Below, one piece after another: positions 15,059 through 56,817 of a stretch of 58,988 bases of DNA (position 1 is its first letter; each line of letters starts with the position of its first letter). The stretch is from Roseburia sp. Its GTDB lineage: Bacteria; Bacillota; Clostridia; Lachnospirales; Lachnospiraceae. The position numbers and the translations under genes are program-made. The notes below the pieces were generated by a model that worked only from the letters and a program-made list of their open reading frames with translations, ran no database searches and was not told the origin of the DNA. The stretch covers positions 1 to 58,988 of the forward strand of contig JAFYVJ010000049.1 of the NCBI GenBank assembly GCA_017549185.1, given 5' to 3'.

Positions 15059-15068
15059 GAGCAAGTCA

Positions 15069-15182: not shown

Positions 15183-15232
15183 GATCAAATGGTTGATTTG
15201 GCAAGAACTCTTTGGTTTTTATGTGATTTTAA

Positions 15233-41311: not shown

Positions 41312-41356
41312 AATAAAAGAAAACAGTGGATGTTGTGAAAATAGGAGAGAATCAAG

Positions 41357-42535
41357 ATGCAGTATCGTGAAGATAAATACGGTAATAAGATATCTGTGCT
41401 AGGTTACGGATGTATGCGTTTTTCGCAAAAAGGTGGAAAAATTGACTTGAAGAAAACAGAACAAGAAATTATGGCTGCCTATGAAGAAGGGGTAAATTAT
41501 TATGATACTGCCTATATATATCCGGGTAGTGAGGCTACGCTCGGAGCCATATTAGAAAAGAACCATATCCGTGACAAAGTATATATTGCCACGAAGCTAC
41601 CACACTATATCATTAAATCAAGAGATGATGCAGAAAAATATTTTCAAGAAGAATTAAAACGTCTTAGAACTAGTTATGTAGATTATTATTTGATGCATAT
41701 GCTGACAGATATAAAGACATGGAAACGTCTAAAAGAGCTTGGAATTGATAAGTGGTTGAAAGAAAAGCAAGAAAGTGGAGCAATTCGACAGGTTGGATTT
41801 TCATATCATGGAAATACAGATATGTTTTGTCAGTTAATAGATGCAAATGATTGGGATTTTTGCCAGATACAATATAATTATTTAGATGAACATTCGCAGG
41901 CAGGAAGGACTGGGCTTCAATATGCAGCATCTAAAGGGATTCCAGTTGTGATTATGGAACCTTTGAGGGGAGGCAGATTGGTAAATAATTTGCCAGAAAA
42001 AGCAAAAAAACTATTTGCAAACTACCCTATCAAGAGAACTCCGGCAGAGTGGGCATTTCGCTGGCTTTGGAATCAGCCGGAAGTTACCTGCGTTCTTTCT
42101 GGCATGAATTCACTTGAGATGGTGCGAGAAAATGTGAAGAATGCAGCTACCTCACAGATTGGAGAGTTTACAGAGAAAGAAGAAAAATTATTAAAGAATG
42201 TTGTGCAGGCACTGAATGAGCAAATGAAGGTGGGATGTACGGGATGTAGTTATTGTATGCCATGCCCTAAAAATGTAGACATTCCTGGTACATTTGCAGC
42301 ATATAATAAACGTTATGTAGACGGGAAATCGAGTGCGTTATTCGAATATATGCTGTGTACGATTGTTCGTAAAGATGCAACTTCTGCATCAAATTGCGTA
42401 GGATGTGGAAAATGCGAACAACACTGTCCGCAGAATATTGCGATACGCAAAGAATTGGAAAATGCAAGAAAAGAACTGGAAGGACCTGTCTATAAACTGG
42501 CACAGAAGGTTGTACCAATGTTTATGAAATTGTAG
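41357..42535 (+). CDS. Aldo/keto reductase with C-terminal 4Fe-4S domain
   Basis: Residues 1-280 form an aldo/keto reductase barrel: VLGYGCMRFS, NYYDTAYIYPGSE with the catalytic Asp and Tyr, YIATKLP with the Lys, YYLMHML with the His, GFSYHG and the NADPH-end VLSGMNS. Residues about 295-365 carry two ferredoxin-like clusters, CTGCSYCMPCP and CVGCGKCEQHCP. The fusion is common in anaerobes and suggests transfer of electrons between ferredoxin and a carbonyl or other substrate; the substrate is unknown. Own terminator at 42585. Confidence 0.88.
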   Translation: MQYREDKYGNKISVLGYGCMRFSQKGGKIDLKKTEQEIMAAYEEGVNYYDTAYIYPGSEATLGAILEKNHIRDKVYIATKLPHYIIKSRDDAEKYFQEELKRLRTSYVDYYLMHMLTDIKTWKRLKELGIDKWLKEKQESGAIRQVGFSYHGNTDMFCQLIDANDWDFCQIQYNYLDEHSQAGRTGLQYAASKGIPVVIMEPLRGGRLVNNLPEKAKKLFANYPIKRTPAEWAFRWLWNQPEVTCVLSGMNSLEMVRENVKNAATSQIGEFTEKEEKLLKNVVQALNEQMKVGCTGCSYCMPCPKNVDIPGTFAAYNKRYVDGKSSALFEYMLCTIVRKDATSASNCVGCGKCEQHCPQNIAIRKELENARKELEGPVYKLAQKVVPMFMKL

Positions 42536-42584
42536 AAAAGAGGAAAAGCGAAAAGTAGAGATGTAAATCTATATAATTATACAA

Positions 42585-42611
42585 AAAACGACAAGAGATT
42601 GTCGTTTTTTT
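42585..42611 (+). terminator. Terminator after the aldo/keto reductase
   Basis: AAAACGACAA, 4-base loop GAGA, TTGTCGTTTT, then TTT. It separates this gene from the succinate cluster. Confidence 0.88.
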
Positions 42612-42739
42612 GAACAAATTTAACAATATCTTTTTGGGGTAAAATATGATATGATATCATAGATTAGAGAAGTATGTTCTCTTTTTTTAATTCTAGTTTG
42701 TTAAAAAATAAACAATCTAAAAATGAAAGGAGCAAACAA

Positions 42740-43687
42740 ATGGCTAGAAAAATTACTATTATTGGAGCTGGTAGTGTAGGAGCAACAATTGCATATAACC
42801 TCTCTCAGGATGATGTAGCATCCGAAATCGTATTAATTGATGTAAATAAGGATAAGGCTGAAGGTGAAGTATTAGATATCATCCAGGGTACATGTTTTAG
42901 AGATCCTATCTCAGTTACATCTGGTGGTTATGAAGAGGCAAAAGATTCAGATATCGTAATTATCACATCTGGTGTTGCACGTAAACCAGGTCAGTCTAGA
43001 CTTGAACTTACACAGACAAATGTTAATATCATCAAAGATATTGCACCACAGATCGTAGCAGTAGCACCAAATGCAAAATATATTATCGTAAGTAACCCAG
43101 TAGATATCATTACATATGTATTTACAAAAATATCTGGTCTTCCAGAAAATCAGATTATTGGTTCTGGTACAATGCTTGATACAGCAAGACTTCGTTGCGG
43201 TATCGCAGAACACTTTAATATCGCACAGAAAAACGTACATGCTTACGTATTTGGTGAACATGGCGATACATCCTTTGTTCCATGGAGCAAAACATGTATT
43301 TCAGCTGTTCCAATCGCTGAATATGCAGATACTATGAAAAAAAGTGGCGTAGATATGGAACCAATCGATAAAGAAGAAATGATTACATATGTACGTAAAT
43401 CAGGTGGAAAGATTATTGCAAACAAAGGTGCTACATTCTATGCAGTAGCAACATCAGTTTGTAAACTCTGTAAGATCTTAACATCTTCTACAGATTCTAT
43501 CAGTACTGTATCTACTATGATGCATGGTGAATATGGTATCGAAGATGTATGTTTAAGTGTTTTATCACTTGTTGGACCAAATGGTTGTCAGGGTAAGGTT
43601 GAAGTTAAGTTGACAGATGAAGAAGTAGAATTGCTTCATAAGAGTGCAAATACTTTAAAAGAAGTAATTGCTCAGATCGAAATTTAA
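42740..43687 (+). CDS. LDH/MDH-family dehydrogenase, probably malate dehydrogenase
   Basis: 315 residues from ATG 42740 (AAAGGAG about 8 bases upstream). NAD-binding GAGSVGATIAY with Asp34 (IDVNK), catalytic His in GEHGDTSF and substrate Arg in ARKPGQSR. At the position that separates LDH (Gln102) from MDH (Arg102), this protein has Arg81 (SGVARKPG), and at LDH position 246 (Thr) it has Cys. Both argue against a normal L-lactate dehydrogenase. Its place at the head of a fumarase and fumarate reductase cluster supports oxaloacetate to malate conversion with NADH. Automatic annotation would probably say L-lactate dehydrogenase. Confidence 0.75.
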   Translation: MARKITIIGAGSVGATIAYNLSQDDVASEIVLIDVNKDKAEGEVLDIIQGTCFRDPISVTSGGYEEAKDSDIVIITSGVARKPGQSRLELTQTNVNIIKDIAPQIVAVAPNAKYIIVSNPVDIITYVFTKISGLPENQIIGSGTMLDTARLRCGIAEHFNIAQKNVHAYVFGEHGDTSFVPWSKTCISAVPIAEYADTMKKSGVDMEPIDKEEMITYVRKSGGKIIANKGATFYAVATSVCKLCKILTSSTDSISTVSTMMHGEYGIEDVCLSVLSLVGPNGCQGKVEVKLTDEEVELLHKSANTLKEVIAQIEI

Positions 43688-43729
43688 TATTCCAATAAAC
43701 CTAATATTTAGAAGGAGAATGGTTGAGTT

Positions 43730-44521
43730 ATGAAGTATACATATTATCCAGGATGTACTTTGAAAACAAAGGCAACAGACCTAGACGCTTATGCCAGAGC
43801 TTCTGCAAAAGCATTAGGCTTTGAGTTAGAAGAAGTTGAAAATTGGCAGTGTTGCGGTGGTGTATATCCTTTGGGTACAGACGAAATCGCATCCAAACTT
43901 TCTTCTGTTCGTGCATTAAATGAAGCAAAAGAAAAAGGACAGGATTTGGTAACTCTTTGCTCAGCATGTCATCATGTTATCAAACGTGTAAATAATGACA
44001 TGAAGAACAACGCAGATATTCGTACTAGAGCGAATAACTATATGCAGTTAGAAGAAGCTTATGCTGGCGAAACCAATGTATTACACTTCTTAGAAGTACT
44101 TCGTGATAAGGTTGGTTTTGATACATTAAAAGAAAAAGTAGTAAATCCTTTAACAGGAAAGAAGATTGGTGCATATTATGGATGTCTCTTACTTCGTCCT
44201 GGTAAGGTACTTGGATTTGATAATCCGGAAAATCCTACTATTATAGAAGATTTTATTCGTGCGATTGGTGCAGAACCAGTGATTTATCCATATCGTAATG
44301 AATGTTGCGGCGGATATATTTCTCTCCGTGAAAAAGAAATGGCAAAGAATATGTGTGATAAGATAAAGGAAAGTGCAGCTGGTTTTGGTGCAGAAATGTT
44401 AATCACAGCATGTCCTCTTTGCATGTATAATTTAAATAAGAGTGACGAAGCAGCACTTCCTGTTTATTATTTCACAGAATTACTTGCAGAAGCACTTGGA
44501 GTAAAAGAGGAGGTAGTGTAA
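43730..44521 (+). CDS. hdrB: Heterodisulfide reductase subunit B-like protein (HdrB)
   Basis: 263 residues with two CCG domains: CTLKTKATD...WQCCGGVY...CSACHHV and YYGCLLLRPG...NECCGGY...ACPLCMYN. In methanogen HdrB these bind the noncubane 4Fe-4S clusters at which the disulfide is reduced. Without coenzyme M in this organism, the terminal acceptor must differ; here the fumarate reductase genes downstream are the candidate. It overlaps hdrC by one base (TAATG). First of seven tightly spaced genes. Confidence 0.9.
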   Translation: MKYTYYPGCTLKTKATDLDAYARASAKALGFELEEVENWQCCGGVYPLGTDEIASKLSSVRALNEAKEKGQDLVTLCSACHHVIKRVNNDMKNNADIRTRANNYMQLEEAYAGETNVLHFLEVLRDKVGFDTLKEKVVNPLTGKKIGAYYGCLLLRPGKVLGFDNPENPTIIEDFIRAIGAEPVIYPYRNECCGGYISLREKEMAKNMCDKIKESAAGFGAEMLITACPLCMYNLNKSDEAALPVYYFTELLAEALGVKEEVV

Positions 44522-44910
44522 TGAGCCACGCAAATAATCAAGCTGAAAAAATCAAAGCAATCAGCGGCGTAAACCCATTAAAATGTATGAAATGCGGCAA
44601 ATGTTCTGCTACCTGTCCTGCTTTTAATGAAATGGACATTAAGCCACACCAGTTTGTATCATATGTACAGAATGGTGATATTGAAGCTTTGGCGAATTCA
44701 AAGTCACTTTGGAAATGTCTTTCTTGCTTCGCTTGTGTAGAGCGTTGTCCAAGAGATGTACAGCCGGGAAGATTAATTGATGCTGCCAGACAGATTGTGG
44801 TTCGTACCAAAGGTCAGACAGGACTTGCACCAGAAGAGATTCCAGAACTTTTAGATTCAGAAGTTCCACAGCAGCTTTTAGTAAGTGCATTTAGAAGATA
44901 CAGGAGGTAA
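44521..44910 (+). CDS. hdrC: Heterodisulfide reductase subunit C-like protein (HdrC)
   Basis: 129 residues, soluble, with two 4Fe-4S clusters: CMKCGKCSATCP and CLSCFACVERCPRD. It links HdrA to HdrB in the known HdrABC complexes. No membrane segment, so this is the cytoplasmic HdrABC type, not HdrDE. It lies one base into hdrB and 6 bases before hdrA. Confidence 0.9.
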   Translation: MSHANNQAEKIKAISGVNPLKCMKCGKCSATCPAFNEMDIKPHQFVSYVQNGDIEALANSKSLWKCLSCFACVERCPRDVQPGRLIDAARQIVVRTKGQTGLAPEEIPELLDSEVPQQLLVSAFRRYRR

Positions 44911-44916
44911 GTCGCA

Positions 44917-46905
44917 ATGCAGAGAATAGGTGTTTTCGTTTGCCACTGCGGTAGTAATATTGCGGCTACGGTAGACGTAAAGAAAGTAGTAGAAATGGTT
45001 CAGATGGAGCCAGGTGTTGTTCATGCAGAAGATTATCAGTATATGTGTTCTGAAGCTGGACAGGCAAAGATTGCAGCAGCAATCCATGAAAAGAATTTAA
45101 CAGGTATTGTTGTGTGTTCTTGTTCCCCACGTATGCACGAGACTACATTCCGTACAGCAGCGGAAAGAGCAGGTCTTAATCCATACATGGTAGAAATCGC
45201 AAACCTCCGTGAGCATTGTTCATGGATTCACAAGGATATGGAAGAAGCTACAAAGAAAGCTGTTATCCTTGCAAGAGCAGCGATTGCAAAAGTAAACTTA
45301 AATACACCATTAAAACCAGGTGAAAGTCTTGTTACAAAACGTGCACTTGTAATTGGTGGTGGTATTGCAGGTATTCAGACTGCAATTGATATTGCTGATG
45401 CCGGATATGAAGTAGATATCGTTGAAAAAACACCAAGTATCGGTGGAAGAATGTCTCAGTTAGACAAAACATTCCCTACACTTGACTGTTCAGCTTGTAT
45501 TCTTACTCCAAAGATGGTAGAAGCAGCATCACATGAAAAGATTACAATCTATACATATAGTGAAGTAGATAAAGTATCCGGTTTCGTAGGTGATTTCACA
45601 GTAGATATCCGTAAAAAAGCAAGAAGTGTTGATGCAACAAAATGTACAGGTTGTGGCGTTTGTCAGGAAAAATGTCCTTCTAAGAAGGCTCCAAGCGAAT
45701 TCAACCGTGGCTTAAATACTAGAAGTGCAATTTACACACCATTTGCACAGGCAATTCCAAATGTACCTGTAATTGATCGTGATGCATGTATGAAATTCCA
45801 GACTGGAAAATGTGGTGTTTGTGAAAAAGTATGTCAGGCAGGTGCGATTGATTATACACAGAAAGATGAAATCGTTACTCAGAAATATGGTGCAATCGTA
45901 GTAGCAACAGGTTTTGATACGATCAAGTTAGATAACTACGATGAATATGCATATAGCCAGAGTAAAGATGTTATCACATCATTAGAATTAGAGCGTATCA
46001 TGAATGCAGCAGGTCCTACAAAAGGACATTTAGAACGTCTTTCTGACGGAAAGCATCCTCATGAAATCGTATTCATTCAGTGTGTAGGTAGCCGTTGTTC
46101 AGACGATAGAGGAAAGAGCTATTGTTCTAAGATTTGTTGTATGTACACAGCAAAACATGCAATGCTTATCCGTGATAAATATCCGGATGTAAACGTTACA
46201 GTATTCTACATTGATGTTCGTACTCCAGGTAAGAACTTTGATGAATTCTACAGAAGAGCCGTAGAAGAATACGGTGTAAATTATATCAAAGGTCAGGTTG
46301 GAAAAGTTATTCCACAGCCAGACGGCAAACTCTTAGTACAGGGTTCTGACTTACTTGATAACAAACAGATTTTAAAAGAAGCTGATATGGTTGTACTTGC
46401 TACAGCAATTGAACCAGAAGCATCTGTTCGTAAGATTGCAACAATGCTTACAGCAAGTATTGATACAAATAATTTCCTGACAGAAGCACATCCAAAGCTT
46501 CGTCCGGTAGAATCTCCAACAGCAGGTGTATTCTTATCCGGTGTATGTCAGGGACCAAAGGATATTCCTGAAACAGTAGCTCAGGCTGGTGCTGCAGCGG
46601 TAAAAGCAATCGGTTTACTTGCAAAAGATAAACTTATGACAAACCCATGTACAGCAAAAGCTGATGAACTTATGTGTAATGGATGTTCTACATGTGCCAA
46701 TGTATGTCCTTATGGTGCAATTTCTTATGAAGAAAAAGAAATTAATGACCATGGTATCCGTGAAGTACGCCGTGTAGCAGTAGTAAACAATGCATTATGT
46801 CAGGGATGTGGTGCTTGTACTGTAGCATGTCCATCCGGTTCTATGGATTTACAGGGCTTCTCAAATAGACAGATTATAGCGGAGGTAGATGCAATATGTC
46901 GATAA
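44917..46905 (+). CDS. hdrA: Heterodisulfide reductase subunit A-like flavoprotein (HdrA)
   Basis: 662 residues. The N-terminal part has VFVCHCGSNI, then the FAD-binding VIGGGIAGIQTAIDIADAGYEVDIVE-like loop (about 145-170), the HdrA signature CSACILTPKMVEAA, ferredoxin-like clusters CTGCGVCQEKCP and CGVCEKVCQAGA, and C-terminal 4Fe-4S pairs CNGCSTCANVCP and CQGCGACTVACP. In HdrA the FAD is the bifurcating centre: it splits electron pairs to a high-potential branch (HdrC/B) and to ferredoxin. Overlaps the next gene by 10 bases. Confidence 0.93.
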   Translation: MQRIGVFVCHCGSNIAATVDVKKVVEMVQMEPGVVHAEDYQYMCSEAGQAKIAAAIHEKNLTGIVVCSCSPRMHETTFRTAAERAGLNPYMVEIANLREHCSWIHKDMEEATKKAVILARAAIAKVNLNTPLKPGESLVTKRALVIGGGIAGIQTAIDIADAGYEVDIVEKTPSIGGRMSQLDKTFPTLDCSACILTPKMVEAASHEKITIYTYSEVDKVSGFVGDFTVDIRKKARSVDATKCTGCGVCQEKCPSKKAPSEFNRGLNTRSAIYTPFAQAIPNVPVIDRDACMKFQTGKCGVCEKVCQAGAIDYTQKDEIVTQKYGAIVVATGFDTIKLDNYDEYAYSQSKDVITSLELERIMNAAGPTKGHLERLSDGKHPHEIVFIQCVGSRCSDDRGKSYCSKICCMYTAKHAMLIRDKYPDVNVTVFYIDVRTPGKNFDEFYRRAVEEYGVNYIKGQVGKVIPQPDGKLLVQGSDLLDNKQILKEADMVVLATAIEPEASVRKIATMLTASIDTNNFLTEAHPKLRPVESPTAGVFLSGVCQGPKDIPETVAQAGAAAVKAIGLLAKDKLMTNPCTAKADELMCNGCSTCANVCPYGAISYEEKEINDHGIREVRRVAVVNNALCQGCGACTVACPSGSMDLQGFSNRQIIAEVDAICR

Positions 46906-47336
46906 AAAATGAAGAATTCAGACCTAAGATTGTAGCGTTCTGCTGTAACTGGTGTAGTTATGCAGGTGCTGACCTTGCAGGTAGTAGCCGTTTAGCATAT
47001 CCAGCAGATGTAAAAATTATTCGTGTACCATGTTCTTGTCGTGTAAACCCAATGTTTATCTTAAGAGCATTTGAAAAAGGTGCAGATGGTGTTATTCTTT
47101 GTGGATGTCACCCGGGAGATTGTCACTACAGCACAGGTAACTATTATGCAAGAAGACGTATGACACTTTTATTCTCTATGCTTGATTACATCGGTGTAGA
47201 AAATGGTCGTACTCGTGTTGAATGGGTATCAGCAGCAGAAGGTGTAAAATTCTCACAGACAATGAACGAATTTGTAGAAAAAATCCGTTCACTTGGTGAA
47301 AATGTAAGATTGGGGGATTTAAGATGCAAGAATTAA
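46896..47336 (+). CDS. MvhD/FlxD-like iron-sulfur electron carrier
   Basis: 146 residues with the MvhD pattern: FCCNWCSYAGADLAG, VPCSCRVNP, CGCHPGDCHY and GNYYARRR, a 2Fe-2S protein that passes electrons into HdrA. In hydrogen-using complexes it links to MvhAG; here the genes after it are Flx subunits, so the donor is more likely NADH. Overlaps hdrA by 10 and the next gene by 13 bases. Confidence 0.9.
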   Translation: MSIKNEEFRPKIVAFCCNWCSYAGADLAGSSRLAYPADVKIIRVPCSCRVNPMFILRAFEKGADGVILCGCHPGDCHYSTGNYYARRRMTLLFSMLDYIGVENGRTRVEWVSAAEGVKFSQTMNEFVEKIRSLGENVRLGDLRCKN

Positions 47337-48295
47337 TTACTCGTGCAAAAGAACTTTTAGAAAATGGTACAGTGGCACGTGTTCTTGGCTGGAAAGCAGG
47401 CGATCTTCCATACAATCCAGAACCAGCTTATTTTACCAATGCAGAAGAATTAAAAGATTTTGTATATAATGGTTTTTGTGGTGCAAACCTTAGCAAATAT
47501 ATGATTGAAGCTTCTAAATTAGAAGGAAAGACACTTGTTTGCTTAAAACCATGTGATACTTACAGCTTTAACCAGCTTTTGAAAGAGCATCGCGTAGACC
47601 GCGAAAAAGCATATATTGTTGGTGTTGGCTGTAAAGGAAAATTAAACATTGAAAAAGTAAAGAGCTTTGGTATTAAAGGTATCGAAAGTGTATTTGGTGC
47701 AGAAATGACAGATAATGCAGATACTTTAACTTTCCAGACAATTTATGGTGAAAAGACCTGCTCTTATGCAGAAGCAATGTTAGAACGCTGCCATGTATGT
47801 AAAGGCAAAGAGCATGTAATATACGATGAACTTATCGGTGAATCAAAAGATACAAAAGATGCAGAGCGTTTTGCAGAAGTTGAAAAAATCGAAGCAATGT
47901 CTCCAGAAGAAAAATTTGCATTCTTCCAGAAAGAGCTTAGCAAATGTATCCGTTGTAATGCTTGCCGTAACGTATGTCCGGCATGTAGCTGTCGTAAATG
48001 TGTATTTGACAGTACTAAGTTTGACAGTGCTCAGAAAGCAAATGTGGATTCCTTTGAAGAAAAGATGTTCCACATCATTCGTGCTTTCCACGTAGCTGGT
48101 AGATGTACAGACTGTGGTGAATGTAGCAGAGTATGTCCACAGGGCATTCCACTTCATTTATTTAACCGCAAGTTTATCAAAGATATTAATGAATTATATG
48201 GTGAATTCCAGGCTGGTGCTGATGCAGAAACAAAAGGACCACTTACGAATTTCACATTTGACGATGCAGAACCAAGCATCGTGGCAAATCGATAA
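47324..48295 (+). CDS. Flx-type 4Fe-4S subunit with FrhB-like N-terminal half (FlxC-like)
   Basis: 323 residues. Residues 1-150 resemble the Cys-containing part of the FrhB/FdhB family (LVCLKPCDTYSFNQLLKEH, YIVGVGCKGKLN, CHVCKG). Residues about 200-280 hold two 4Fe-4S clusters, CIRCNACRNVCPACSCRKC and CTDCGECSRVCPQG. In Flx-Hdr complexes a subunit of this kind joins FlxB and FlxD. The FrhB-like half may add a flavin or cluster site. 15 bases before the next gene. Confidence 0.78.
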   Translation: MQELITRAKELLENGTVARVLGWKAGDLPYNPEPAYFTNAEELKDFVYNGFCGANLSKYMIEASKLEGKTLVCLKPCDTYSFNQLLKEHRVDREKAYIVGVGCKGKLNIEKVKSFGIKGIESVFGAEMTDNADTLTFQTIYGEKTCSYAEAMLERCHVCKGKEHVIYDELIGESKDTKDAERFAEVEKIEAMSPEEKFAFFQKELSKCIRCNACRNVCPACSCRKCVFDSTKFDSAQKANVDSFEEKMFHIIRAFHVAGRCTDCGECSRVCPQGIPLHLFNRKFIKDINELYGEFQAGADAETKGPLTNFTFDDAEPSIVANR

Positions 48296-48310
48296 TAGGA
48301 GGAGTAATGT

Positions 48311-49342
48311 ATGTATAAGATAGCCAAAGAAAATCTTCCGGCATTATTCCAGTTGATTGCCGAAGATAAAGAATTATATGTGCCGGTAAATAACGGCGGA
48401 CAGGTGAATTTCGCAAATTGGACAGAAAGTTCACAGGTAGATTTAGATACATTAAAGTCAGTAAAATCACCTAAAGATGCATTTTTTCCACAGAGTGAAA
48501 ACCTTTATACCTGTTATAAAGATGGCAAAAAAATTCAGATTGAGCCAGAAGAATTACAGAACCAGAATTTCGTTGTATTTGGTATGAAAGCATGTGATGT
48601 AAAAGGTGTAGAAGTACTTGATAAAGTATTTTTAGTAGAACCGGTAGATACATTCTATGCAGCTAGACGTGCACATGGTACAATCGTTGCTATGGCATGT
48701 CATGAACCAGAAGAAACATGTTTCTGTAAAGTGTTTGGTATTGATTGTGCAAATCCGGTAGCTGACGTAGCTACTTGGATGGTAGAAGGCGAGCTTTACT
48801 GGAAAGCCCTTACAGAAAAGGGTGAAGCTCTTACAGCAGCAGTAGCTTCACTTCTTACAGATGCAGATGAAGCAAAAGTAGAAGAAGAAAAGAACGCAAT
48901 TCATGCAATCGTAGAGAAACTTCCATATACAAACCTTTCATTAGAAGGTTGGAATGGAGATGTTCTTTCTGAAAAATTCGATTCTCCTGTATGGGAAGAA
49001 TTGTATAAACCATGTTTGGCATGTGGTACATGTACATTCGTATGTCCAACTTGCCAGTGCTACGATATCAAGGATTATGATACAGGACATGGTATCAAAC
49101 GTTATCGTTGTTGGGATTCTTGTATGTATTCTGACTTTACTATGATGGCACACGGAAACAACCGTACTAGCCAGTTGCAGAGATTCCGTCAGAGATTCAT
49201 GCATAAATTAGTATATTTCCCAGCAAACAATGATGGTATGTATTCTTGTGTGGGTTGTGGACGTTGTGTAGAAAAATGTCCATCATCTTTAAATATCGTA
49301 AAAGTAATTAAGGCATTTGAGAAACAGGGAGGTGACCAGTAA
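48311..49342 (+). CDS. FlxB-like (AsrA-like) 4Fe-4S protein
   Basis: 343 residues resembling anaerobic sulfite reductase subunit A: FGMKACDVKGVEVLDKVFL, then ACHEPEETCFCKVFG, and two 4Fe-4S clusters, CLACGTCTFVCPTCQC and CVGCGRCVEKCPSS. In Flx modules this subunit takes electrons from the flavin subunit FlxA. The stop overlaps the next start by one base. AGGAGGAG is a strong ribosome site. Confidence 0.82.
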   Translation: MYKIAKENLPALFQLIAEDKELYVPVNNGGQVNFANWTESSQVDLDTLKSVKSPKDAFFPQSENLYTCYKDGKKIQIEPEELQNQNFVVFGMKACDVKGVEVLDKVFLVEPVDTFYAARRAHGTIVAMACHEPEETCFCKVFGIDCANPVADVATWMVEGELYWKALTEKGEALTAAVASLLTDADEAKVEEEKNAIHAIVEKLPYTNLSLEGWNGDVLSEKFDSPVWEELYKPCLACGTCTFVCPTCQCYDIKDYDTGHGIKRYRCWDSCMYSDFTMMAHGNNRTSQLQRFRQRFMHKLVYFPANNDGMYSCVGCGRCVEKCPSSLNIVKVIKAFEKQGGDQ

Positions 49343-50199
49343 TGTGCGATTGTAATTGTCATGAAAATTACACATTAGATACCTTAATTCCAAAGGTTGG
49401 TGTTATCACCGATATCCGTCAGGAGACTCCTGATGTAAAAACCTTCCGTGTGAATGCACCAGAAGGTGGTAAATTATTTGAACATATGCCAGGTCAGTGT
49501 GCTATGGTTTGTGCACCTGGTATTAGTGAAGGTATGTTCTCGATTACATCTTCACCTACAAATAAAGAGTACCAGGAATTTAGTATTAAAAAATGCGGTA
49601 TGCTTACCGAATATTTACATAGCTTAGAAGTAGGTGATGAAATCACCGTTCGTGGACCTTATGGTAATAATTTCCCGGTTGAAACAGAATTAAAGGGAAA
49701 AGATTTATTGTTTATCGCAGGTGGTATCGGACTTGCACCACTTCGTTCTGTTATCAATTATGTTATCGATAACAGAGAGAATTATGGTAAAGTAGATATT
49801 CTCTATGGTTCACGTTCCGCAGATGATTTGGTTCAGTTGAAAGAAATTCAGGAAGTTTGGATGAACACACCTGGTATCAATGTACATCTGACCATTGACC
49901 GTCCACAGGAAGGTTGGAATGGTAACGTAGGTTTTGTTCCTACATACTTAAAAGAATTAAACTTCGAATCCGCAGGAAAAGTTGCTTTGGTTTGTGGACC
50001 ACCAATTATGATTAAATTCGTATTGGCAGCATTAAAAGAGATGGGATTCTCAGATGAGCAGGTATATACAACATTAGAGCTTCGTATGAAGTGTGGTGTT
50101 GGTAAATGCGGACGTTGTAATATCGGTTCTAAGTATGTGTGCAAGGATGGTCCGGTATTCCGATTTGACGAAATCGACGAACTTCCAAACGAGTATTAA
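49342..50199 (+). CDS. FlxA-like FAD/NAD(P)-binding oxidoreductase subunit (AsrB/PyrK type)
   Basis: 285 residues. The N-terminal barrel binds FAD (FSITSSPTNKEY is the RxYS-type variant), the middle is an NAD(P)-binding domain (FIAGGIGLAPLRSVI, LYGSRSADDL, LVCGPPIMI), and a C-terminal 2Fe-2S site is formed by MKCGVGKCGRCNIG and YVCKDGP. This is the dihydroorotate dehydrogenase electron-transfer/AsrB family. In Flx-Hdr complexes it oxidises NADH and passes electrons towards HdrA. Last gene before a palindromic repeat and the fumarate reductase pair. Confidence 0.88.
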   Translation: MCDCNCHENYTLDTLIPKVGVITDIRQETPDVKTFRVNAPEGGKLFEHMPGQCAMVCAPGISEGMFSITSSPTNKEYQEFSIKKCGMLTEYLHSLEVGDEITVRGPYGNNFPVETELKGKDLLFIAGGIGLAPLRSVINYVIDNRENYGKVDILYGSRSADDLVQLKEIQEVWMNTPGINVHLTIDRPQEGWNGNVGFVPTYLKELNFESAGKVALVCGPPIMIKFVLAALKEMGFSDEQVYTTLELRMKCGVGKCGRCNIGSKYVCKDGPVFRFDEIDELPNEY

Positions 50200-50200
50200 A

Positions 50201-50366
50201 ATAACAGTTCAGCCATGAATATCATCGCAGGTGAATCATGCTTGCAGGAATGAACATGAGATGGTATTCATGAGCGGAGCACCAAAATAATGAGCATAGT
50301 TAGCTGCGAAGCAGCGAGAAAGCACCGTAGATGCGACTTTGCGAATGTTTTGGGATGAGCTGTTAT
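50201..50366. repeat. Dispersed MITE-like repeat family 1, long copy
   Basis: A 166-bp element with inverted ends ATAACAGTTCA (50201-50211) and TGAGCTGTTAT (50356-50366), one mismatch. It shares ATGCTTGCA...AATGAA with the copy at 53949 and TTTGCGAATG with all copies. It starts two bases after the flxA-like stop, inside the putative succinate operon, and could affect expression of the fumarate reductase genes by folding or termination. Confidence 0.65.
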
Positions 50367-50389
50367 ATATTAATTAAGGAGAAAAGAAA

Positions 50390-51064
50390 ATGGCAGATAT
50401 GATTAACATTTACTTATATGGTAAAAAGTATGAAGTGCCAGCAAATTTAACCATTATGGAAGCGTTTGAATATGCTGGTTATCAGTTAGTACGTGGCTGT
50501 GGATGCCGTAATGGATTCTGTGGTGCATGTGCAACAATTTATAGAATTAAAGGAAAGAATGATTTAGTAGGATGTCTTGCTTGTTCTACAAAAGTTGAAA
50601 ATGATATGTGTGTAGCAACATTACCATTCTTCCCATTAGAGAAAAAAGTATATGATATTACAGAGATTAAACCAGATGCACAGGTAATGATGCAGTTATA
50701 TCCAGAAATTTATGCATGTATCGGATGTAACGCATGTACAAAAGCATGTAGTCAGGACCTTGATGTTATGCAGTATATTGCACACGCACAGAGAGGCGAA
50801 TTTGAGAAATGTGCAGAACTTTCTTTTGACTGTGTAATGTGTGGAGTATGTTCTTCACGTTGTCCAGCTGGTATTTCTCATCCACAGGTAGCTCTTTTAG
50901 CAAGAAGACTTACTGGTAAGTACATCAGACCAGAAGCAGAACATTTAACTAAGAGAGTAAAAGAAATCGAAGATGGTGAATGTAGAGCTCTTATTGAAGC
51001 TATCATGGCAAAACCATTAGAAGAAATCAAAGAATTATATAACAATAGAGATATTGAGAAGTAG
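50390..51064 (+). CDS. frdB: Soluble fumarate reductase iron-sulfur subunit (FrdB/TfrB-like)
   Basis: 224 residues. A plant-type 2Fe-2S domain (C39, C44, C47, C62 in GCRNGFCGAC and GCLAC) is followed by two full 4Fe-4S motifs (C110-C113-C116-C120 and C148-C151-C154-C158). Classical FrdB/SdhB has one 2Fe-2S, one 4Fe-4S and one 3Fe-4S; the double HdrC-like arrangement here recalls the thiol:fumarate reductase of methanogens. Overlapping reading with frdA is avoided by the frdA start at 51078. No membrane-anchor gene is near. Confidence 0.85.
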   Translation: MADMINIYLYGKKYEVPANLTIMEAFEYAGYQLVRGCGCRNGFCGACATIYRIKGKNDLVGCLACSTKVENDMCVATLPFFPLEKKVYDITEIKPDAQVMMQLYPEIYACIGCNACTKACSQDLDVMQYIAHAQRGEFEKCAELSFDCVMCGVCSSRCPAGISHPQVALLARRLTGKYIRPEAEHLTKRVKEIEDGECRALIEAIMAKPLEEIKELYNNRDIEK

Positions 51065-51077
51065 GAGGAGGCCAAGC

Positions 51078-52694
51078 ATGAGTTTAATTTATACCGATGA
51101 AATGATGGAATCCATTAAGAAGGTAGAAGCTGGTAGAGCTGCTCGTATTGGTTTTGAACCAAAACGTATGACAGCAGATGAGAAAACAGCACTTTTAGAA
51201 GCTTTCCATCCAGACTACAATCTCGACAGCTTTGAAGAAATCAAAGTTGGTCCAAACAAAGGCGAGAAAGCACCTAAGGAATTAGTAGAAATTCTTCAGG
51301 GCGAAAGCAGAATCAAAGGCATGGACCTTGATCTTACAAAAGTAGATTATGATGTAGATGTACTCGTAATCGGTGGTGGCGGTGCTGGTGCATCTGCAGC
51401 TATCGAAGCAAACGAAGCTGGTGCAAACGTTATGATCGTTACAAAACTTCGTATCGGTGATGCTAACACTATGATGGCAGAAGGTGGTATTCAGGCAGCA
51501 GATAAAGAAAATGACTCTCCTGCACAGCACTACCTTGATGTTATGGGTGGCGGACACTATGCAAACGTGCCAGAATTAGTAGAAAAACTTGTTTGTGACG
51601 GACCACTTGCAATTAACTGGTTAGACAAATTAGGTGTATTATTTGATAAAGATGAAAATGGTAATATGATTACAACACACGGTGGTGGTACATCACGTAA
51701 ACGTATGCATGCAGCAGCAGACTATTCTGGTGCGGAAATCATGCGTGTACTTCGTGACGAAGTAATCAACCGTAAAATCCCGGTAGTAGACTATACTGCA
51801 GCGATTGAACTTATCAAAGATACAGACGGAAAAGCAGCTGGTGCGGTTCTTATGAACATGGAAACAAACGAAATCCTTATCGCAAGAGCAAAAACAGTTG
51901 TTATTGCTACAGGTGGTGCAGGACGTATGCACTATCAGGGATTCCCAACATCTAACCACTATGGTGCAACAGCAGATGGTCTTGTTATGGCTTATCGTGC
52001 AGGTGCAGCACTTTTATACCAGGATACATTACAGTATCATCCAACAGGTGTAGCTTTCCCAGCACAGATTTACGGTGCACTCGTAACAGAAAAAGTTCGT
52101 TCTATGGGTGCAATGTTCGTAAACAAAGATGGTGAAGTATTCATGCATCCATTGGAAACACGTGACGTAGCAGCTTCTGGTATCATTCGTGAATGTAAAG
52201 AAAGAGGCAAAGGTGTTCAGACACCTGTTGCAGAAGGTATCTGGTTAGATACTCCAATGATTGACATGATTCACGGAGAAGGTACTTTAGAGAAGAGACT
52301 TCCAGGTATGCTCCGTATGTACTTACGTTGTGGTATCGATATGAGAAAGGTACCTATCGTAATTTATCCTACACTTCACTACCAGAATGGTGGTATTAAG
52401 ATTACTGCAAATGGTATGTCAGATATTGAAAACCTTTATGTTGCAGGTGAGGCAGTTGGTGGTATCCACGGAAGAAACCGTCTCATGGGTAACTCTTTAT
52501 TAGATATCATTGTATTTGGACGTAATGCTGGTAAAGAAGCTGGTGCAAAATGCAAAGAAGTAGAAGTAAAAGAGCTTACATTATCACATGTGGATGAATA
52601 CTCAAAGATGCTTGCAGATGCAAACATTGAACCAACAGTAGTATCTCCAAAATTATTGCCTGATTACAGAAAACAGGATGTAACCAGACTGTAA
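51078..52694 (+). CDS. frdA: Fumarate reductase flavoprotein subunit, soluble type
   Basis: 538 residues from ATG 51078 (AGGAGGAGG 7 bases upstream). FAD loop VLVIGGGGAGASAAIEANEAG at about 95-115, and the catalytic set of the FrdA/SdhA family: QYHPTGV, TRDVAASGI, LHYQNGGI and GGIHGRNRLMGNSLLD. Two odd points: the His that binds FAD covalently in FrdA/SdhA is replaced by Asn130 (GDANTMMAEGG), so FAD is probably not covalent; and there is an extra N-terminal stretch of about 90 residues rich in charge, possibly a docking arm. L-aspartate oxidase is an alternative, but no nadA/nadC is near. Confidence 0.87.
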   Translation: MSLIYTDEMMESIKKVEAGRAARIGFEPKRMTADEKTALLEAFHPDYNLDSFEEIKVGPNKGEKAPKELVEILQGESRIKGMDLDLTKVDYDVDVLVIGGGGAGASAAIEANEAGANVMIVTKLRIGDANTMMAEGGIQAADKENDSPAQHYLDVMGGGHYANVPELVEKLVCDGPLAINWLDKLGVLFDKDENGNMITTHGGGTSRKRMHAAADYSGAEIMRVLRDEVINRKIPVVDYTAAIELIKDTDGKAAGAVLMNMETNEILIARAKTVVIATGGAGRMHYQGFPTSNHYGATADGLVMAYRAGAALLYQDTLQYHPTGVAFPAQIYGALVTEKVRSMGAMFVNKDGEVFMHPLETRDVAASGIIRECKERGKGVQTPVAEGIWLDTPMIDMIHGEGTLEKRLPGMLRMYLRCGIDMRKVPIVIYPTLHYQNGGIKITANGMSDIENLYVAGEAVGGIHGRNRLMGNSLLDIIVFGRNAGKEAGAKCKEVEVKELTLSHVDEYSKMLADANIEPTVVSPKLLPDYRKQDVTRL

Positions 52695-52717
52695 ATCAAA
52701 AGTAGATTGTTAAGAGT

Positions 52718-52773
52718 ACAATGTAACGATAACGGCAGACACTTTATAGTGTCTGCTGGGGTCGTTACATTGT
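52718..52773. other. Strong cruciform between frdA and the transporter gene
   Basis: ACAATGTAACGA (52718-52729) pairs perfectly with TCGTTACATTGT (52762-52773), and an inner GCAGACAC/GTGTCTGC stem lies within. No U-run follows, so it is not a normal terminator; it may limit read-through, protect the mRNA 3' end or be a protein-binding site. Confidence 0.6.
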
Positions 52774-52798
52774 GTATGTGTGAAAAGAGGTAATAAAA

Positions 52799-53950
52799 AT
52801 GAATATTTTTACATGGTTTATGGAGAGTGTATGGACCAATAACCTGATGTTGATGTTTTCGATTTTGGTTCTTGGTTATGCATTGGGGAGAGTAAAAGTC
52901 TGTGGTCTTGATTTAGGAACAGCAGGCGTCCTTTTAGTAGCATTGATATTTGGACACTTTGGGGTAGTGATACCGGATATCGTTGGAGATTTGGGTCTGA
53001 TTTGTTTTGTAACAGCAGTTGGCTACATTGCGGGACCGAAGTTTTTCCGAAACCTGAAAGCAAATGCGACTTCTTACATTTTGATGGGAGTTGTGACAAT
53101 TTTAGCAGGGGCTTTGGTTTGTGTTGCTTTAATCAAACTATGTAATATTCCTACTGACATTGGTGTTGGATTGATGTCTGGTGCATTGACTAGTACGCCT
53201 GGTCTTGCGGCAGCAAAAGAGGCAGCCGGTGTTAATGCAGCAGTTGGATATGGTATAGCATATCCATTTGGTGTTGTTGGTGTAGTTTTATTTGTACAGT
53301 TACTGCCTCGAATTTTAAAAACAGACATGGCTGCAGAACGTGCAAAATTTCAAGCAGCAGCAACTGTGCAGGTAGAGCAGAAAGAAGCGAAAAAGAGAAT
53401 CGCAATTGATGACATGGGATATTTTGGATTTGGTCTTGCAATTGTACTTGGTGTTATTTTAGCAAAGATTACAATTCCATTACCAGGTGGCGGACAGTTT
53501 GCACTTGGTACATCAGGTGGTCCGTTATTAGCCGGCTTGATATTGTCTCACTTTGGTCATGTTGGACCAATTGATATAAGAGCAGAAAAACGTATGCTTG
53601 AATGTATAAGAGAATTCGGACTTGCTTTATTCTTGATGGGTGCCGGTTTGGAAGGTGGAGCAGGATTTGTGGAAGTATTAAAAGAACAGGGTGCAATGCT
53701 TTTCGTATATGGTGCACTTATGACAATAGTTCCAATGTTTGTATCATATTTCTTTGCATCAAAAGTATTAAAGCTTAGTGTGTTTAATTCTCTTGGTTCT
53801 ATTTGCGGTGGTATGACAAGTACACCGGCACTTGGAACTTTAATCCGTGTAGCACAGACAGATGATGTGGCAGCCGCTTATGCAGCTACTTATCCAATGG
53901 CATTGATTCTAGTAGTACTTTGCTGTCAGTTTATCGGAATTTTATGTTAA
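52799..53950 (+). CDS. AspT/SucE-family transporter lacking the TrkA-C domains; candidate succinate exporter
   Basis: 383 residues and about ten membrane helices in two repeated halves, each with the family signature: GLMSGALTSTPGLAAAKE and GSICGGMTSTPALGTL. Known members are the aspartate:alanine exchanger AspT and the succinate exporter SucE1, about 540 residues with two TrkA-C domains in the central loop; here that loop is only about 40 residues and charged. Placed between fumarate reductase and fumarase, it most plausibly exports succinate or exchanges C4-dicarboxylates. Substrate inferred from context. Confidence 0.8.
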   Translation: MNIFTWFMESVWTNNLMLMFSILVLGYALGRVKVCGLDLGTAGVLLVALIFGHFGVVIPDIVGDLGLICFVTAVGYIAGPKFFRNLKANATSYILMGVVTILAGALVCVALIKLCNIPTDIGVGLMSGALTSTPGLAAAKEAAGVNAAVGYGIAYPFGVVGVVLFVQLLPRILKTDMAAERAKFQAAATVQVEQKEAKKRIAIDDMGYFGFGLAIVLGVILAKITIPLPGGGQFALGTSGGPLLAGLILSHFGHVGPIDIRAEKRMLECIREFGLALFLMGAGLEGGAGFVEVLKEQGAMLFVYGALMTIVPMFVSYFFASKVLKLSVFNSLGSICGGMTSTPALGTLIRVAQTDDVAAAYAATYPMALILVVLCCQFIGILC

Positions 53951-54096
53951 TTCAGAGCTGGGATAATTTTCATAAAAAGCATGAATTATGCTTGCATAAA
54001 TGAAAGCTTTTTTTGAAAATTTCTTTGGCGAGAAGCCCGAAATGAGCAAAATGAAAGCCTTGAAAAGGCAATTTTGCGAATGAGGCTCTGAATAAA
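53949..54096. repeat. Dispersed MITE-like repeat family 1, full copy
   Basis: Ends TTCAGAGC (53951-53958) and GCTCTGAA (54085-54092) are perfect inverted repeats. The right half (from GAAAATTTCTTTGGCGAGAAG through GCCTTGAAAAGGCA and TTTTGCGAATG) matches the minus strand of 29160-29248 with few changes. It lies between the transporter stop and the fumarase alpha gene. Confidence 0.75.
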
Positions 54097-54130
54097 TATG
54101 TATAATTACTTAGGTATGGAGGGAAAAACA

Positions 54131-54973
54131 ATGCGTGAGATTAACGTAAGCCAAATTACAGATGTGGTTGAAAAGCTTTGTATTGAAGCGAACCAGTATC
54201 TTCCAGAAGACGTTCAGTGTGCGATTAAAAAATGTCGAGCTTGTGAAGATTGGGATATTGCACAGGGCGTATTAGATAAAATTATTACAAATTTTGAAAT
54301 TGCAGAGCAGGAAAATGTACCAATCTGTCAGGATACAGGTATGGCATGTGTATTTCTTGAAATCGGTCAGGATGTTCACCTTGTAGGTGGCAACTTGGCA
54401 GAAGCAGTAGATGAAGGTGTTCGTCGTGGTTACGACAAAGGATACCTCCGTAAATCAGTTGTAAAAGATCCAGTTCGTCGTGGTAACACAGGTGATAATA
54501 CACCAGCGATGCTTTATACAGAAATCGTTCCAGGTGAACAGGTTAAGATTACAGTAGGTCCAAAAGGATTTGGTAGTGAAAATATGAGTGCAATTCGTAT
54601 GTTCAAACCATCTGCAGGTCTTCAGGGTATCAAAGATTTTATCATTGAAACAGTAGAAACAGCAGGTCCTAATCCATGTCCTCCAATGGTAGTGGGTGTA
54701 GGTATCGGTGGAACATTTGATAAAGCAGCTCTTCTTGCAAAGAAAGCACTTATGAGACCGGTTGATTCTGTGAATCCGGACCCATTCTACGCTGATTTAG
54801 AAGTAGAAATGCTTGAAAAAATCAACGAACTTGGTATTGGACCACAGGGCTTTGGTGGAAAGACCACAGCGATTGGTTTAAACATTGAAACATTACCAAC
54901 TCACATTGCAGGTATGCCATGTGCAATCAATATTAACTGCCATGTAACACGCCACAAATCGGAGGTAATCTAA
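54131..54973 (+). CDS. fumA: Fumarate hydratase, class I, alpha subunit
   Basis: Oxygen-sensitive 4Fe-4S fumarase; catalyses malate to fumarate together with the beta subunit. 280 residues. Motifs: [15 protein letters not shown] with a cluster Cys, [29 protein letters not shown] and [22 protein letters not shown] 54131 has GGAGGG 7 bases upstream; ATG 54098 falls in the repeat. One base separates it from the beta subunit. L(+)-tartrate dehydratase is a close relative, but the setting beside MDH and FrdAB favours fumarase. Confidence 0.9.
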
Positions 54974-54974
54974 T

Positions 54975-55532
54975 ATGGAAAAGAAAATTACATTACCATT
55001 AACAGAAGAACTTGCAAAAACATTAAAAGCTGGAGATTCTGTATATGTAACAGGAACCATCTATACTTCTCGTGATGCTGGACATAAACGTATGTGTGAA
55101 GCGTTAGCAAGAGGTGAAGAACTTCCATTTGATCCAACAGATGCAACGATTTATTATGTAGGACCTACGCCAGCAAAACCAGGTCAGGTAATCGGTTCAG
55201 CAGGACCTACAACAAGTGGTCGTATGGATGCTTATGCACCAACTATGATGAGTGTAGGTGCAAGAGGTATGATCGGTAAAGGTGCTCGTCTTCCAGAAGT
55301 AGTAGATGCAATGAAGAAATACTCAGGAGTATATTTTGGTGCAATTGGTGGTGCGGGTGCATTACTTGCAAAATGTATCAAGAGTGCAGAACTTATCGCT
55401 TATGAAGATTTAGGAGCAGAAGCACTTCGTAAATTATACGTAGAAGATATGCCATTAGTTGTTATTATCGATAGCGAAGGTAATAACTTATATGAAGATG
55501 GAAAAGCTGCTTATTTAGCTTCTAAGAAGTAA
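54975..55532 (+). CDS. fumB: Fumarate hydratase, class I, beta subunit
   Basis: 185 residues equivalent to the C-terminal domain of single-chain class I fumarases. Motifs: GDSVYVTGTIYTSRDAGHKRM, YVGPTPAKPGQVIGSAGPTTSGRMD and GKGAR, followed by YFGAIGGAGAL. It completes the active site with the alpha subunit. Last gene of the cluster; a terminator follows 38 bases later. Confidence 0.92.
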   Translation: MEKKITLPLTEELAKTLKAGDSVYVTGTIYTSRDAGHKRMCEALARGEELPFDPTDATIYYVGPTPAKPGQVIGSAGPTTSGRMDAYAPTMMSVGARGMIGKGARLPEVVDAMKKYSGVYFGAIGGAGALLAKCIKSAELIAYEDLGAEALRKLYVEDMPLVVIIDSEGNNLYEDGKAAYLASKK

Positions 55533-55569
55533 TTTGTAGCAACAAAACAGATATTGTTTTTGAAGTTTG

Positions 55570-55612
55570 GAGAGGTTATGTAACAGCATAGTGTTACATG
55601 CCTCTCTTTTCT
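55570..55612 (+). terminator. Terminator of the fumarase / succinate cluster
   Basis: GAGAGG...ATGTAACA pairs with TGTTACAT...CCTCTC (55570-55606), followed by TTTTCT. Confidence 0.85.
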
Positions 55613-55635
55613 AATTCACAGGAAGAAGGCAGAAA

Positions 55636-56574
55636 ATGATACTAAGCGTAAGTCGTAGAACAGATATTCCAAACTATTATTCAGAATGGTTTTTTAATAG
55701 AATAAAAGAAAAATTTGTCTATGTACGTAATCCTATGAACCCATATCAGGTAAGCAAAATTGACCTGTCACCGGAAGTGGTGGACTGTATTGTTTTTTGG
55801 ACGAAAAATCCAAAGCCGATGATGGAGAGGCTAGATGAACTGAGTAGGTATAAATATTATTTTCAGTTTACACTGACTGGATATGGGAAAGATGTTGAAC
55901 GAAATGTGCCACACAAAAAGGATATAGTCATTCCGACGTTTCAGGAGCTTTCACAAAAAATAGGAAAAGAAAAAGTTATATGGAGATATGACCCAATTTT
56001 ATTTACAGAAAAGTATACGCCGGAATATCACCTAAAAGCGTTTGAACAGATTGCAGGTGCATTAAATGGTTTCACAAAGAAGTGTGTTATAAGTTTTGTG
56101 GATACCTATGCAAAGAATAAGAAAAATATGGTAGAATTAGGTGTGAGGGAACTTGACAAAATGCAGTTGCAGGATTTTGCAAGTCAGCTTAGCCGAATTA
56201 CTGCAAAGAACGGCATGGAAATTGCCAGCTGTGCGGAGGAGATAGATTTAGAAGTATGTGGAATCAGGCATAACTCCTGTATAGAACGTGAACTGATAGA
56301 GCGGATTATCGGCTGCAAACTCAATGTAAGTAAGGATAAAAATCAGCGTGAAGAATGTGGATGTATCGAGAGTATCGAGATTGGCACTTATAATACCTGT
56401 AAAAATGGTTGCAGATACTGCTATGCAAACGAGACGGATACAAGTGTATTAAGTAATTGCAAGTGTTATCATCCGGAGGCACCTATTTTGTGTGGGAATC
56501 TTGGAGAAAATGACAAGATTCATATCCGGAAAATGAAATTACTAAAAGAAGAACAGTTAAATCTTTTTGAATAA
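55636..56574 (+). CDS. DUF1848 family protein
   Basis: 312 residues. Begins MILSVSRRTDIPNYYSEWFFNR, the DUF1848 signature, with VDCIVFWTKNPKPM and QFTLTGYG. Near the C-terminus are Cys motifs (CIERELIERIIGCKLN and NTCKNGCRYCYAN), the last resembling a radical SAM or Fe-S site at an unusual position. Function not established; the family often occurs near DNA-repair or photolyase-like genes, which I do not see here. Confidence 0.85.
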   Translation: MILSVSRRTDIPNYYSEWFFNRIKEKFVYVRNPMNPYQVSKIDLSPEVVDCIVFWTKNPKPMMERLDELSRYKYYFQFTLTGYGKDVERNVPHKKDIVIPTFQELSQKIGKEKVIWRYDPILFTEKYTPEYHLKAFEQIAGALNGFTKKCVISFVDTYAKNKKNMVELGVRELDKMQLQDFASQLSRITAKNGMEIASCAEEIDLEVCGIRHNSCIERELIERIIGCKLNVSKDKNQREECGCIESIEIGTYNTCKNGCRYCYANETDTSVLSNCKCYHPEAPILCGNLGENDKIHIRKMKLLKEEQLNLFE

Positions 56575-56630
56575 GAAAATCACATTTAAAGTACGAAATC
56601 ATTTCATGTAAACAAGAGGAGATTTTAGTT

Positions 56631-56813
56631 ATGGCAAAGATAGAAGACAGATTCGAAAAAGTATATTCACAGGGGACATTGAATGTCACAGAGATTTGGG
56701 TAGACAGGGAGACAGGCGTAAACTACGTATTTCATGCAAGTGGTTATGCAGGCGGTTTGACACCATTACTAGATAGAGATGGAAAACCGGTAGTTTCGTC
56801 AATTATGGGGTAA
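56631..56813 (+). CDS. DUF6440 family small protein
   Basis: 60 residues: RFEKVYSQGTLNVTEIWVDR and GVNYVFHASGYAGGLTPLLD, the whole of a small all-beta family with GYAGGLTPLLDRDGKPV. RBS AAGAGGAG 10 bases upstream. No known function; many homologues are strand-swapped or solitary small proteins. It ends 4 bases before the MATE gene and may be co-transcribed. Confidence 0.8.
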   Translation: MAKIEDRFEKVYSQGTLNVTEIWVDRETGVNYVFHASGYAGGLTPLLDRDGKPVVSSIMG

Positions 56814-56817
56814 TGAG

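Follow-up and report, generated by a model that had tools for sequence, protein, structure and literature searches.

The contig JAFYVJ010000049.1 of Roseburia sp. (assembly GCA_017549185.1), analysed here at its full length of 58,988 nucleotides (the window, contig C45), carries on its + strand a block of 13 open genes (42740..55532) in which a complete HdrABC-FlxABCD set stands next to a fumarate reductase pair, frdBA, making it a candidate electron-bifurcating fumarate reductase locus. The genome to which it belongs (2.31 Mb in 78 contigs) is 70% complete and the host is probably a gut-dwelling anaerobe. Profile searches identify, in order, mdh, hdrB, hdrC, hdrA, flxD (mvhD), flxC, flxB, flxA, frdB, frdA, an AspT-type transporter gene and the fumarase alpha and beta genes, with spacings from mdh through fumarase beta of 42, -1, 6, -10, -13, 15, -1, 190, 13, 104, 147 and 1 nucleotides. 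Four junctions overlap: hdrB/hdrC by 1, hdrA/flxD by 10, flxD/flxC by 13 and flxB/flxA by 1 base. An earlier interpretation made from the DNA letters (hereafter the sequence-only reading) had proposed this 13-gene order on one strand with small overlaps, and all of it is borne out.

All seven FlxABCD-HdrABC subunits are encoded together in the window. The product of the hdrA-like flavoprotein gene (44917..46905) aligns from residue 3 to residue 660 of its 662 with the methanogen HdrA of 5odc (683.5 bits) and reaches 793.7 bits against the HdrA2 model (cut-off 1100); the Cys of its ferredoxin domains are conserved in each of the 108 aligned rows having a residue there. A single in-frame TGA, the pattern expected for selenocysteine, occurs in many HdrA genes of other genomes. 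The hdrB-like gene (43730..44521) encodes two CCG domains (PF02754 twice), whose ten ligand-type Cys are found in 103/103 relatives from Flx loci, and the hdrC-like gene (44521..44910), recognised by profiles and motifs, encodes two CxxCxxCxxxC motifs. The mvhD/flxD-like gene (46896..47336) matches FlpD (PF02662, 185.6 bits). It is followed by a flxC-like gene for a dicluster ferredoxin protein (47324..48295; Fer4 models, conserved position, named as the flxD neighbour), a flxB-like gene of the AsrA/sulfhydrogenase beta type (48311..49342; NCBIfam ShyB 196.5 bits and AsrA 147.7 bits, both under the cut-off, named as the flxA neighbour) and a flxA-like gene for an NAD(P)H-binding flavoprotein of the AsrB/HydG type (49342..50199; PF00175, PF10418, PF00970). 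The Flx names follow Desulfovibrio vulgaris, in which FlxB (39.4 kDa) lies beside FlxA (31.0 kDa) and FlxC is fused with FlxD (PMC10920352); the order flxD, flxC, flxB, flxA given by the sequence-only reading agrees with that arrangement.

The frdA gene (51078..52694) belongs by its profiles to the FrdA/SdhA/TfrA family. Its best NCBIfam match is TfrA, the subunit of the methanogen thiol:fumarate reductase TfrAB, at 340 bits (cut-off 718), and its AlphaFold model (predicted local distance difference test, pLDDT, 78.1) has E. coli FrdA (1kf6) as Foldseek rank 1. His321, Glu338, Arg362, His434 and Arg468 are invariant in the rows of the Flx-locus alignment, as is Thr337 except for one Ser, and all align with the corresponding E. 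coli SdhA motifs; we take these residues (Thr337/Glu338 together) to serve fumarate reductase catalysis. The His that binds flavin adenine dinucleotide (FAD) covalently in SdhA is replaced by Asn130, in all 40 rows of a first alignment and in all Flx-locus rows. In E. coli, loss of the covalent FAD bond costs succinate oxidation, not fumarate reduction. The alignment with TfrA begins at residue 91, and those with SdhA, FrdA and NadB from about there, leaving an N-terminal extension of 90 residues. This extension was considered as a mark of Hdr wiring and rejected: the sequence-only reading had proposed to look for its co-occurrence with hdrABC-flx, and FrdA proteins whose only Hdr neighbours are HdrBC have it too, as do those of genomes in which HdrA was not found.

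The frdB gene (50390..51064; profiles) encodes one [2Fe-2S]-type and two complete four-Cys [4Fe-4S]-type motifs, the 12 Cys of which are kept in 112/112 Flx-locus relatives; its structure model is poor (pLDDT 72.4, predicted template-modelling score 0.41). E. coli FrdABCD shares with the window FrdA the fold and the active-site residues. The window differs from it in the absence of anchor genes from the block (no genome-wide anchor search was made), of the covalent-FAD His and of a match to the C-terminal SdhA-type domain in the profile search, and in that its FrdB has two four-Cys [4Fe-4S]-type motifs and no [3Fe-4S] motif, which is expected in the FrdB of a quinol:fumarate reductase. The anchor-less FrdAB joined to a complete HdrABC-Flx set, as first proposed, is thus what the block contains. 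TfrB in turn has a CCG part, whereas the Pfam profiles find no CCG domain in the window FrdB, HdrC and HdrB being separate proteins; the TfrB model covers FrdB-, HdrC- and HdrB-like stretches one after another, a fused precedent for their contact.

The product of the first gene of the block (42740..43687; Pfam Ldh_1_N/Ldh_1_C) is over the NCBIfam cut-off both for L-lactate dehydrogenase (LDH) models and for the malate dehydrogenase model PRK06223. Arg81 occupies the position of the LDH specificity Gln, which is Gln in the two best PDB matches; the third-best, 1y6j, deposited as an L-LDH, also has Arg. Arg81 recurs in 67/69 aligned Flx-locus relatives, the remaining 2 having a gap there. Presumably Arg at this position selects malate, and because it replaces the specificity Gln the gene probably encodes a malate dehydrogenase. 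The NCBIfam L-LDH call despite the Arg means that malate dehydrogenases of this group may be misnamed when genomes are annotated automatically. The transporter gene (52799..53950) encodes a short form of the AspT/YidE/YbjL family, matched by TIGR01625 in two stretches (188.4 bits), possibly a dicarboxylate transporter that may export succinate. Class I fumarase alpha (54098..54973; PRK06246) and beta (54975..55532; PRK06842) are both over cut-off.

The linkage of these genes in other genomes is far beyond chance. In a scan of named genomes, which took the 80 best loci out of at least 587 relatives and is thus confined to the closest ones, the nine hdr-flx-frd genes are complete, in the same order and on one strand, in 62 loci; in the remaining 18 the contig start truncates the block, and no locus breaks the order. 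The nearest named relative by FrdA, among the matches listed, from which records of the window's own genome may be missing, is a Lachnospiraceae metagenome-assembled genome (MAG; locus L004, 95% identity), and the operon occurs in the named strains Blautia glucerasea (L038) and Eubacterium coprostanoligenes (L080). This Clostridia operon is also present in MAGs whose titles read Planctomycetaceae and Bacteroidaceae (L023, L082, L069); these titles or bins are doubtful. An even draw of genomes across the class found this FrdA in 54/391 genomes, the window's included. Loci were fetched from 52 of the 53 other genomes (G629, with the gene split over two contigs, was omitted), of which 45 could be judged, and HdrA, FlxB and FlxA lie beside FrdBA in 45/45, before it in 44 and after it in L200. 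All seven subunits are visible in 41, and the contig ends before hdrB in 4; of the 7/52 cut loci, six show part of the block and one FrdA alone. A draw across the phylum found this FrdA in 39/398 genomes (all E-values <1e-214, limit 1e-90), and at E<=1e-180 HdrA is matched in 34 of these 39 genomes against 92 of the 359 without this FrdA (Fisher p 4.6e-14, a value that ignores kinship). G304, among the five FrdA genomes missing HdrA at that threshold, has its HdrA cut by a contig end (L141).

We consider it likely that the product of the block is a cytoplasmic fumarate reductase fed by NADH, in which HdrA splits electrons between ferredoxin and, via HdrC and HdrB, FrdBA. FlxA would accept hydride from NADH, and FlxB, FlxC and FlxD (MvhD) would relay the electrons to the FAD of HdrA; low-potential electrons would exit to ferredoxin via the HdrA ferredoxin domains, and high-potential ones would pass through HdrC and HdrB to the FrdB clusters and the FrdA FAD, where fumarate would be reduced to succinate. 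Malate dehydrogenase and fumarase would make the fumarate from oxaloacetate. The net reaction would be 2 NADH + fumarate + 2 oxidised ferredoxin -> succinate + 2 reduced ferredoxin + 2 NAD+, and the reduced ferredoxin may be reoxidised by [FeFe] hydrogenase or Rnf. With E0' values of +33 and -320 mV (PMC5861303) and a ferredoxin potential of about -450 to -500 mV (PMC10734219, PMC9304861), arithmetic gives a reaction energy of about -33 to -43 kJ per mol fumarate. Bifurcation, the step from HdrC/HdrB to FrdB, a stable complex, succinate export and the direction of the reaction are what we infer; we draw the HdrC/HdrB-FrdB link because loci with HdrBC only exist and because the TfrB model covers all three stretches.

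The genomic markers bear on where the electrons may go. MenG/UbiE (TIGR01934) over its cut-off served as the menaquinone marker, a single one that demethylmenaquinone would escape. It is found in 1/60 genomes with adjacent Flx-Hdr (the one genome is G043, a MAG that carries the title Bacteroidaceae; the 60 include G002, whose hdr genes are cut off), in 0/2 with HdrABC, in 4/4 with HdrBC only, in 4/10 with Flx-Hdr elsewhere and in 1/4 with no HdrA found. The four HdrBC-only loci form one clade, so the contrast counts as one, and their genomes also carry HdrA elsewhere. The 8-methylmenaquinol:fumarate reductase SdhABE comes close in one subunit, as the window HdrB matches the SdhE model below cut-off (145 bits, cut-off 500); the difference is that 59/60 genomes with adjacent Flx-Hdr lack a MenG match above the cut-off, and none is found in the window's own genome at its 70% completeness. 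A quinone-fed FrdAB, an alternative raised by the sequence-only reading, was therefore rejected for the window: the FAD-binding His, an anchor gene in the block and a MenG match over cut-off are all missing. One [FeFe] hydrogenase (PF02906) is matched in the own genome, and 42/51 genomes searched have a match. The Rnf genes that the sequence-only reading suggested looking for were not found (0 matches to RnfD/E, PF03116, in the 70%-complete genome); this RnfD/RnfE/NQR2 family is matched in 36/51 genomes.

The history of the block speaks of a tie between frdBA and hdr-flx. In an FrdA tree of 42 chosen rows (cut loci, most near-copies, L114, L115, L116 and L120 being omitted), the 19 rows with hdr-flx first, the 5 with frdBA first and L147, where hdrC precedes hdrB, fall in three separate places, as two clades and one single row. 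Approximately unbiased (AU) tests reject joining the first two (p 1.1e-4) and all three including L147 (p 7e-45), the gene-order groups having been defined after earlier trees had been inspected. Three independent gains of the linkage are not thereby proved, and rearrangement and loss could contribute. Within the window's own lineage, an FrdA+FrdB tree (25 rows) groups the window, L004 and L034 with L008, L010, L011, L013 and L014 (100/100), whereas an HdrA+FlxB+FlxA tree (25 rows) places the same three in a set of 13 with L037, L055, L079 and others (100/100). Forcing each of the two gene sets into the grouping of the other is rejected (p 9e-8 and 4e-35), with p-values that are generous since this test was set up after a first look at the data. 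Identities were compared with eight loci of the Hdr-Flx-kin set (the L037, L055, L079 side) and five of the FrdBA-kin set (the L008 side): HdrB to FlxA are 69-96% identical to the former and 53-84% to the latter, FrdA 71-74% vs 78-86%, and FrdB 69-73% vs 75-81%; FumA is 86-94% identical to the seven Hdr-Flx-kin loci that show it. As judged from these trees and identities, the lineage of the window is one in which frdBA was replaced in place while hdr-flx was retained and the linkage kept, which supports a functional tie between the two.

The gap of about 190 nucleotides between flxA and frdB (50200..50389, + strand) was considered as the recombination junction of this exchange and rejected. 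It is missing in close relatives that share the swapped frdBA, being absent in L004, L005, L006 and L034, and is therefore a later insertion. It is a dispersed repeat, with five more, partial copies in the own genome (67-80%), and by eye its termini resemble an inverted repeat.

Some data nevertheless weigh against an NADH-fed, bifurcating fumarate reductase, and three other explanations draw on them. The in-place exchange itself argues against a finely co-evolved FrdBA-Hdr interface. In the window's own family the occurrence of this FrdA is patchy, with one further genome in the class draw having it (G728) and at least 14 without it; the missing RnfD/E match in the own genome, given above, adds to this. 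The phylum draw further complicates the picture. Its 39 loci, fetched from 38 other genomes, one with two copies (up to 9.5 kb before and 4.5 kb after FrdA, shorter at contig ends), comprise 5 with adjacent Flx-Hdr, 11 with HdrA and neither FlxA nor FlxB in the fetched stretch, 4 with HdrBC only (all with MenG), 15 with no hdr near and 4 cut; the locus sets overlap (L043/L161, L053/L162), so counts from the draws are not additive as independent.

HdrB retains both CCG motifs, in 103/103 Flx-locus relatives, so a disulfide could be its substrate. Flx-Hdr might then reduce a disulfide, small or protein-borne as with Desulfovibrio DsrC, and the dithiol, or NADH by another way, would feed FrdBA without any complex. 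For D. vulgaris, the likely second acceptor is given as DsrC (PMC10920352), which, by the title of a paper cited there, binds FlxABCD-HdrABC. HdrA was searched in 17 genomes (14 without hdr near FrdBA and three with cut loci) and is present in 13; twelve HdrA stretches fetched from them all hold Flx-Hdr, one without FlxA (contig end) and one without HdrB found. Flx-Hdr thus stands apart from frdBA in 10 of the 14, which, with the HdrA of 92/359 genomes without this FrdA, means that Flx-Hdr has other partners. The CCG domain of TfrB is the presumed site of its electron uptake from thiols, and the window FrdB has no match to such a domain; no small redox protein gene is seen in the block either (no DsrC search was made). 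We regard the disulfide route as unlikely.

The 11 loci without FlxA or FlxB (L117, at 4468-15196, L118, L121, L125, L127, L134, L136, L137, L140, L141 and L145) place FrdBA beside hdrA, mvhD and a gene that weakly resembles flxC; hdrB and hdrC are present in 9/11, the other 2 being cut. The hdrA of L117 and that of L140 are long fused forms, of 1071 aa and 1495 aa. Downstream, as seen by eye, lie 2-oxoacid:ferredoxin oxidoreductase-like genes in 10/11 and succinyl-CoA synthetase-like genes in 8/11. Such neighbours of the wider relatives would suit reverse operation, in which reduced ferredoxin would drive the oxidation of succinate to fumarate and yield NADH (confurcation), and electron bifurcation is reversible in principle. 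For the window, the fermentation-type neighbours mdh, fumarase and transporter, the Asn130 in place of the FAD-binding His and the production of succinate by Pseudoclostridium thermosuccinogenes, which has a like operon (PMC7282089), make this direction very unlikely.

Four genomes listed as 99% complete (G430, G346, G121 and G117) have an FrdBA of the clade and no HdrA match at E<=1e-40, so FrdBA can use another donor, and in a wider tree of 120 rows L114, L115, L116 and L120, with no hdr near, fall inside the main Flx-wired clade. By eye, FrdBA of L114, L115 and L116 (genomes G430, G346 and G121) lies directly 3' of a pyruvate carboxylase-like gene. In L123 (6901-9464; by eye) FrdBA comes after genes resembling those of multihaem cytochromes and a gene for an HdrC-like protein that has a hydrophobic stretch at its C-terminal end, and its genome, G089, has MenG; this is another wiring, perhaps to quinol. 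Such loci leave some room for neighbours that are no more than co-regulated, FrdBA being fed by ferredoxin, flavodoxin, free flavin or a cytochrome or acting as an aspartate oxidase. This is highly improbable, as the linkage recurs in three orders and survives cassette exchange. No NadA match is found in the own genome (70% complete), and an aspartate oxidase (NadB) identity was rejected on that ground; 36/51 genomes, this one included, have none, yet 15/51 have one. Taken together, the block is a real, widespread fumarate reductase operon, probably of the bifurcating kind.

Neither the kind of operon nor the idea of bifurcation is new: both are prior art from P. thermosuccinogenes. Its 'succinate operon' comprises fumarase, Flx-Hdr, fumarate reductase and a hypothetical gene proposed as a succinate transporter (PMC7282089; preprint 10.20944/preprints201912.0288.v1), and its authors infer fumarate reduction coupled to ferredoxin reduction. 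Low CO2 raised the operon about 4-fold and H2 left hardly any succinate, which the authors judged fitting; the H2 effect fits ferredoxin coupling. Na2S acted opposite to H2, confusing to the authors and unhelpful to the coupling (PMC7282089). By the published description, the window equals this operon in gene content (fumarase, Flx-Hdr, FrdAB, transporter) and differs in layout, its mdh being first and fumarase last where the locus tags of P. thermosuccinogenes put fumarase at one end beside Flx-Hdr. The FlxABCD-HdrABC of D. vulgaris (Ramos et al. 2015, via PMC10920352) has the same seven subunit kinds; there they are tied to ethanol metabolism and DsrC, with FlxC and FlxD fused, whereas those of the window lie beside FrdBA, mdh and fumarase. 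Gammaproteobacterial clusters of the reductive tricarboxylic acid cycle have tfrAB interspersed with flxABCD-hdrABC, and direct electron delivery from Flx-Hdr to TfrAB has been suggested for them (PMC6315080); unlike the window, they are of TfrAB type, belong to autotrophic sulfur oxidisers and contain korABCD. Our literature searches, which covered titles and abstract openings, brought up no purified Flx-Hdr-FrdAB and no enzyme test of the bifurcating idea. What is new is the spread in the class, the menaquinone-marker contrast, the in-place exchange of frdBA and the four genomes with FrdBA and no HdrA found.

Around the block, a gene at 41357-42535, just upstream, is aldo/keto reductase-like with a C-terminal ferredoxin-like part (weak matches). 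No Rfam family exceeds its threshold in 41000-56900. A promoter scan gave 35 sites vs 44.8 expected, and 14 terminator-like sites were found vs 7.9 expected, 12 of them on the minus strand; no conclusion was drawn from either.

It is tempting to speculate further that the FrdBA clade is a plug-in cassette docking on HdrC/HdrB, which HdrA and Flx would make bifurcating and quinone-free and HdrBC alone menaquinol-linked, that it moves between operons by exchange, and that its bifurcating form is one of the main ways in which gut Clostridia that lack quinones conserve energy while making succinate; this extended picture is tentative, and we would put its chances somewhat below even. Since the genes are common in the class and present in named strains, the biochemical question is directly testable. 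If the bifurcating reading is true, many fermenters without quinones would conserve energy when they form succinate, gaining with every fumarate reduced some reduced ferredoxin for H2, Rnf or biosynthesis, and the yield and redox accounting of gut and rumen succinate and propionate would change.

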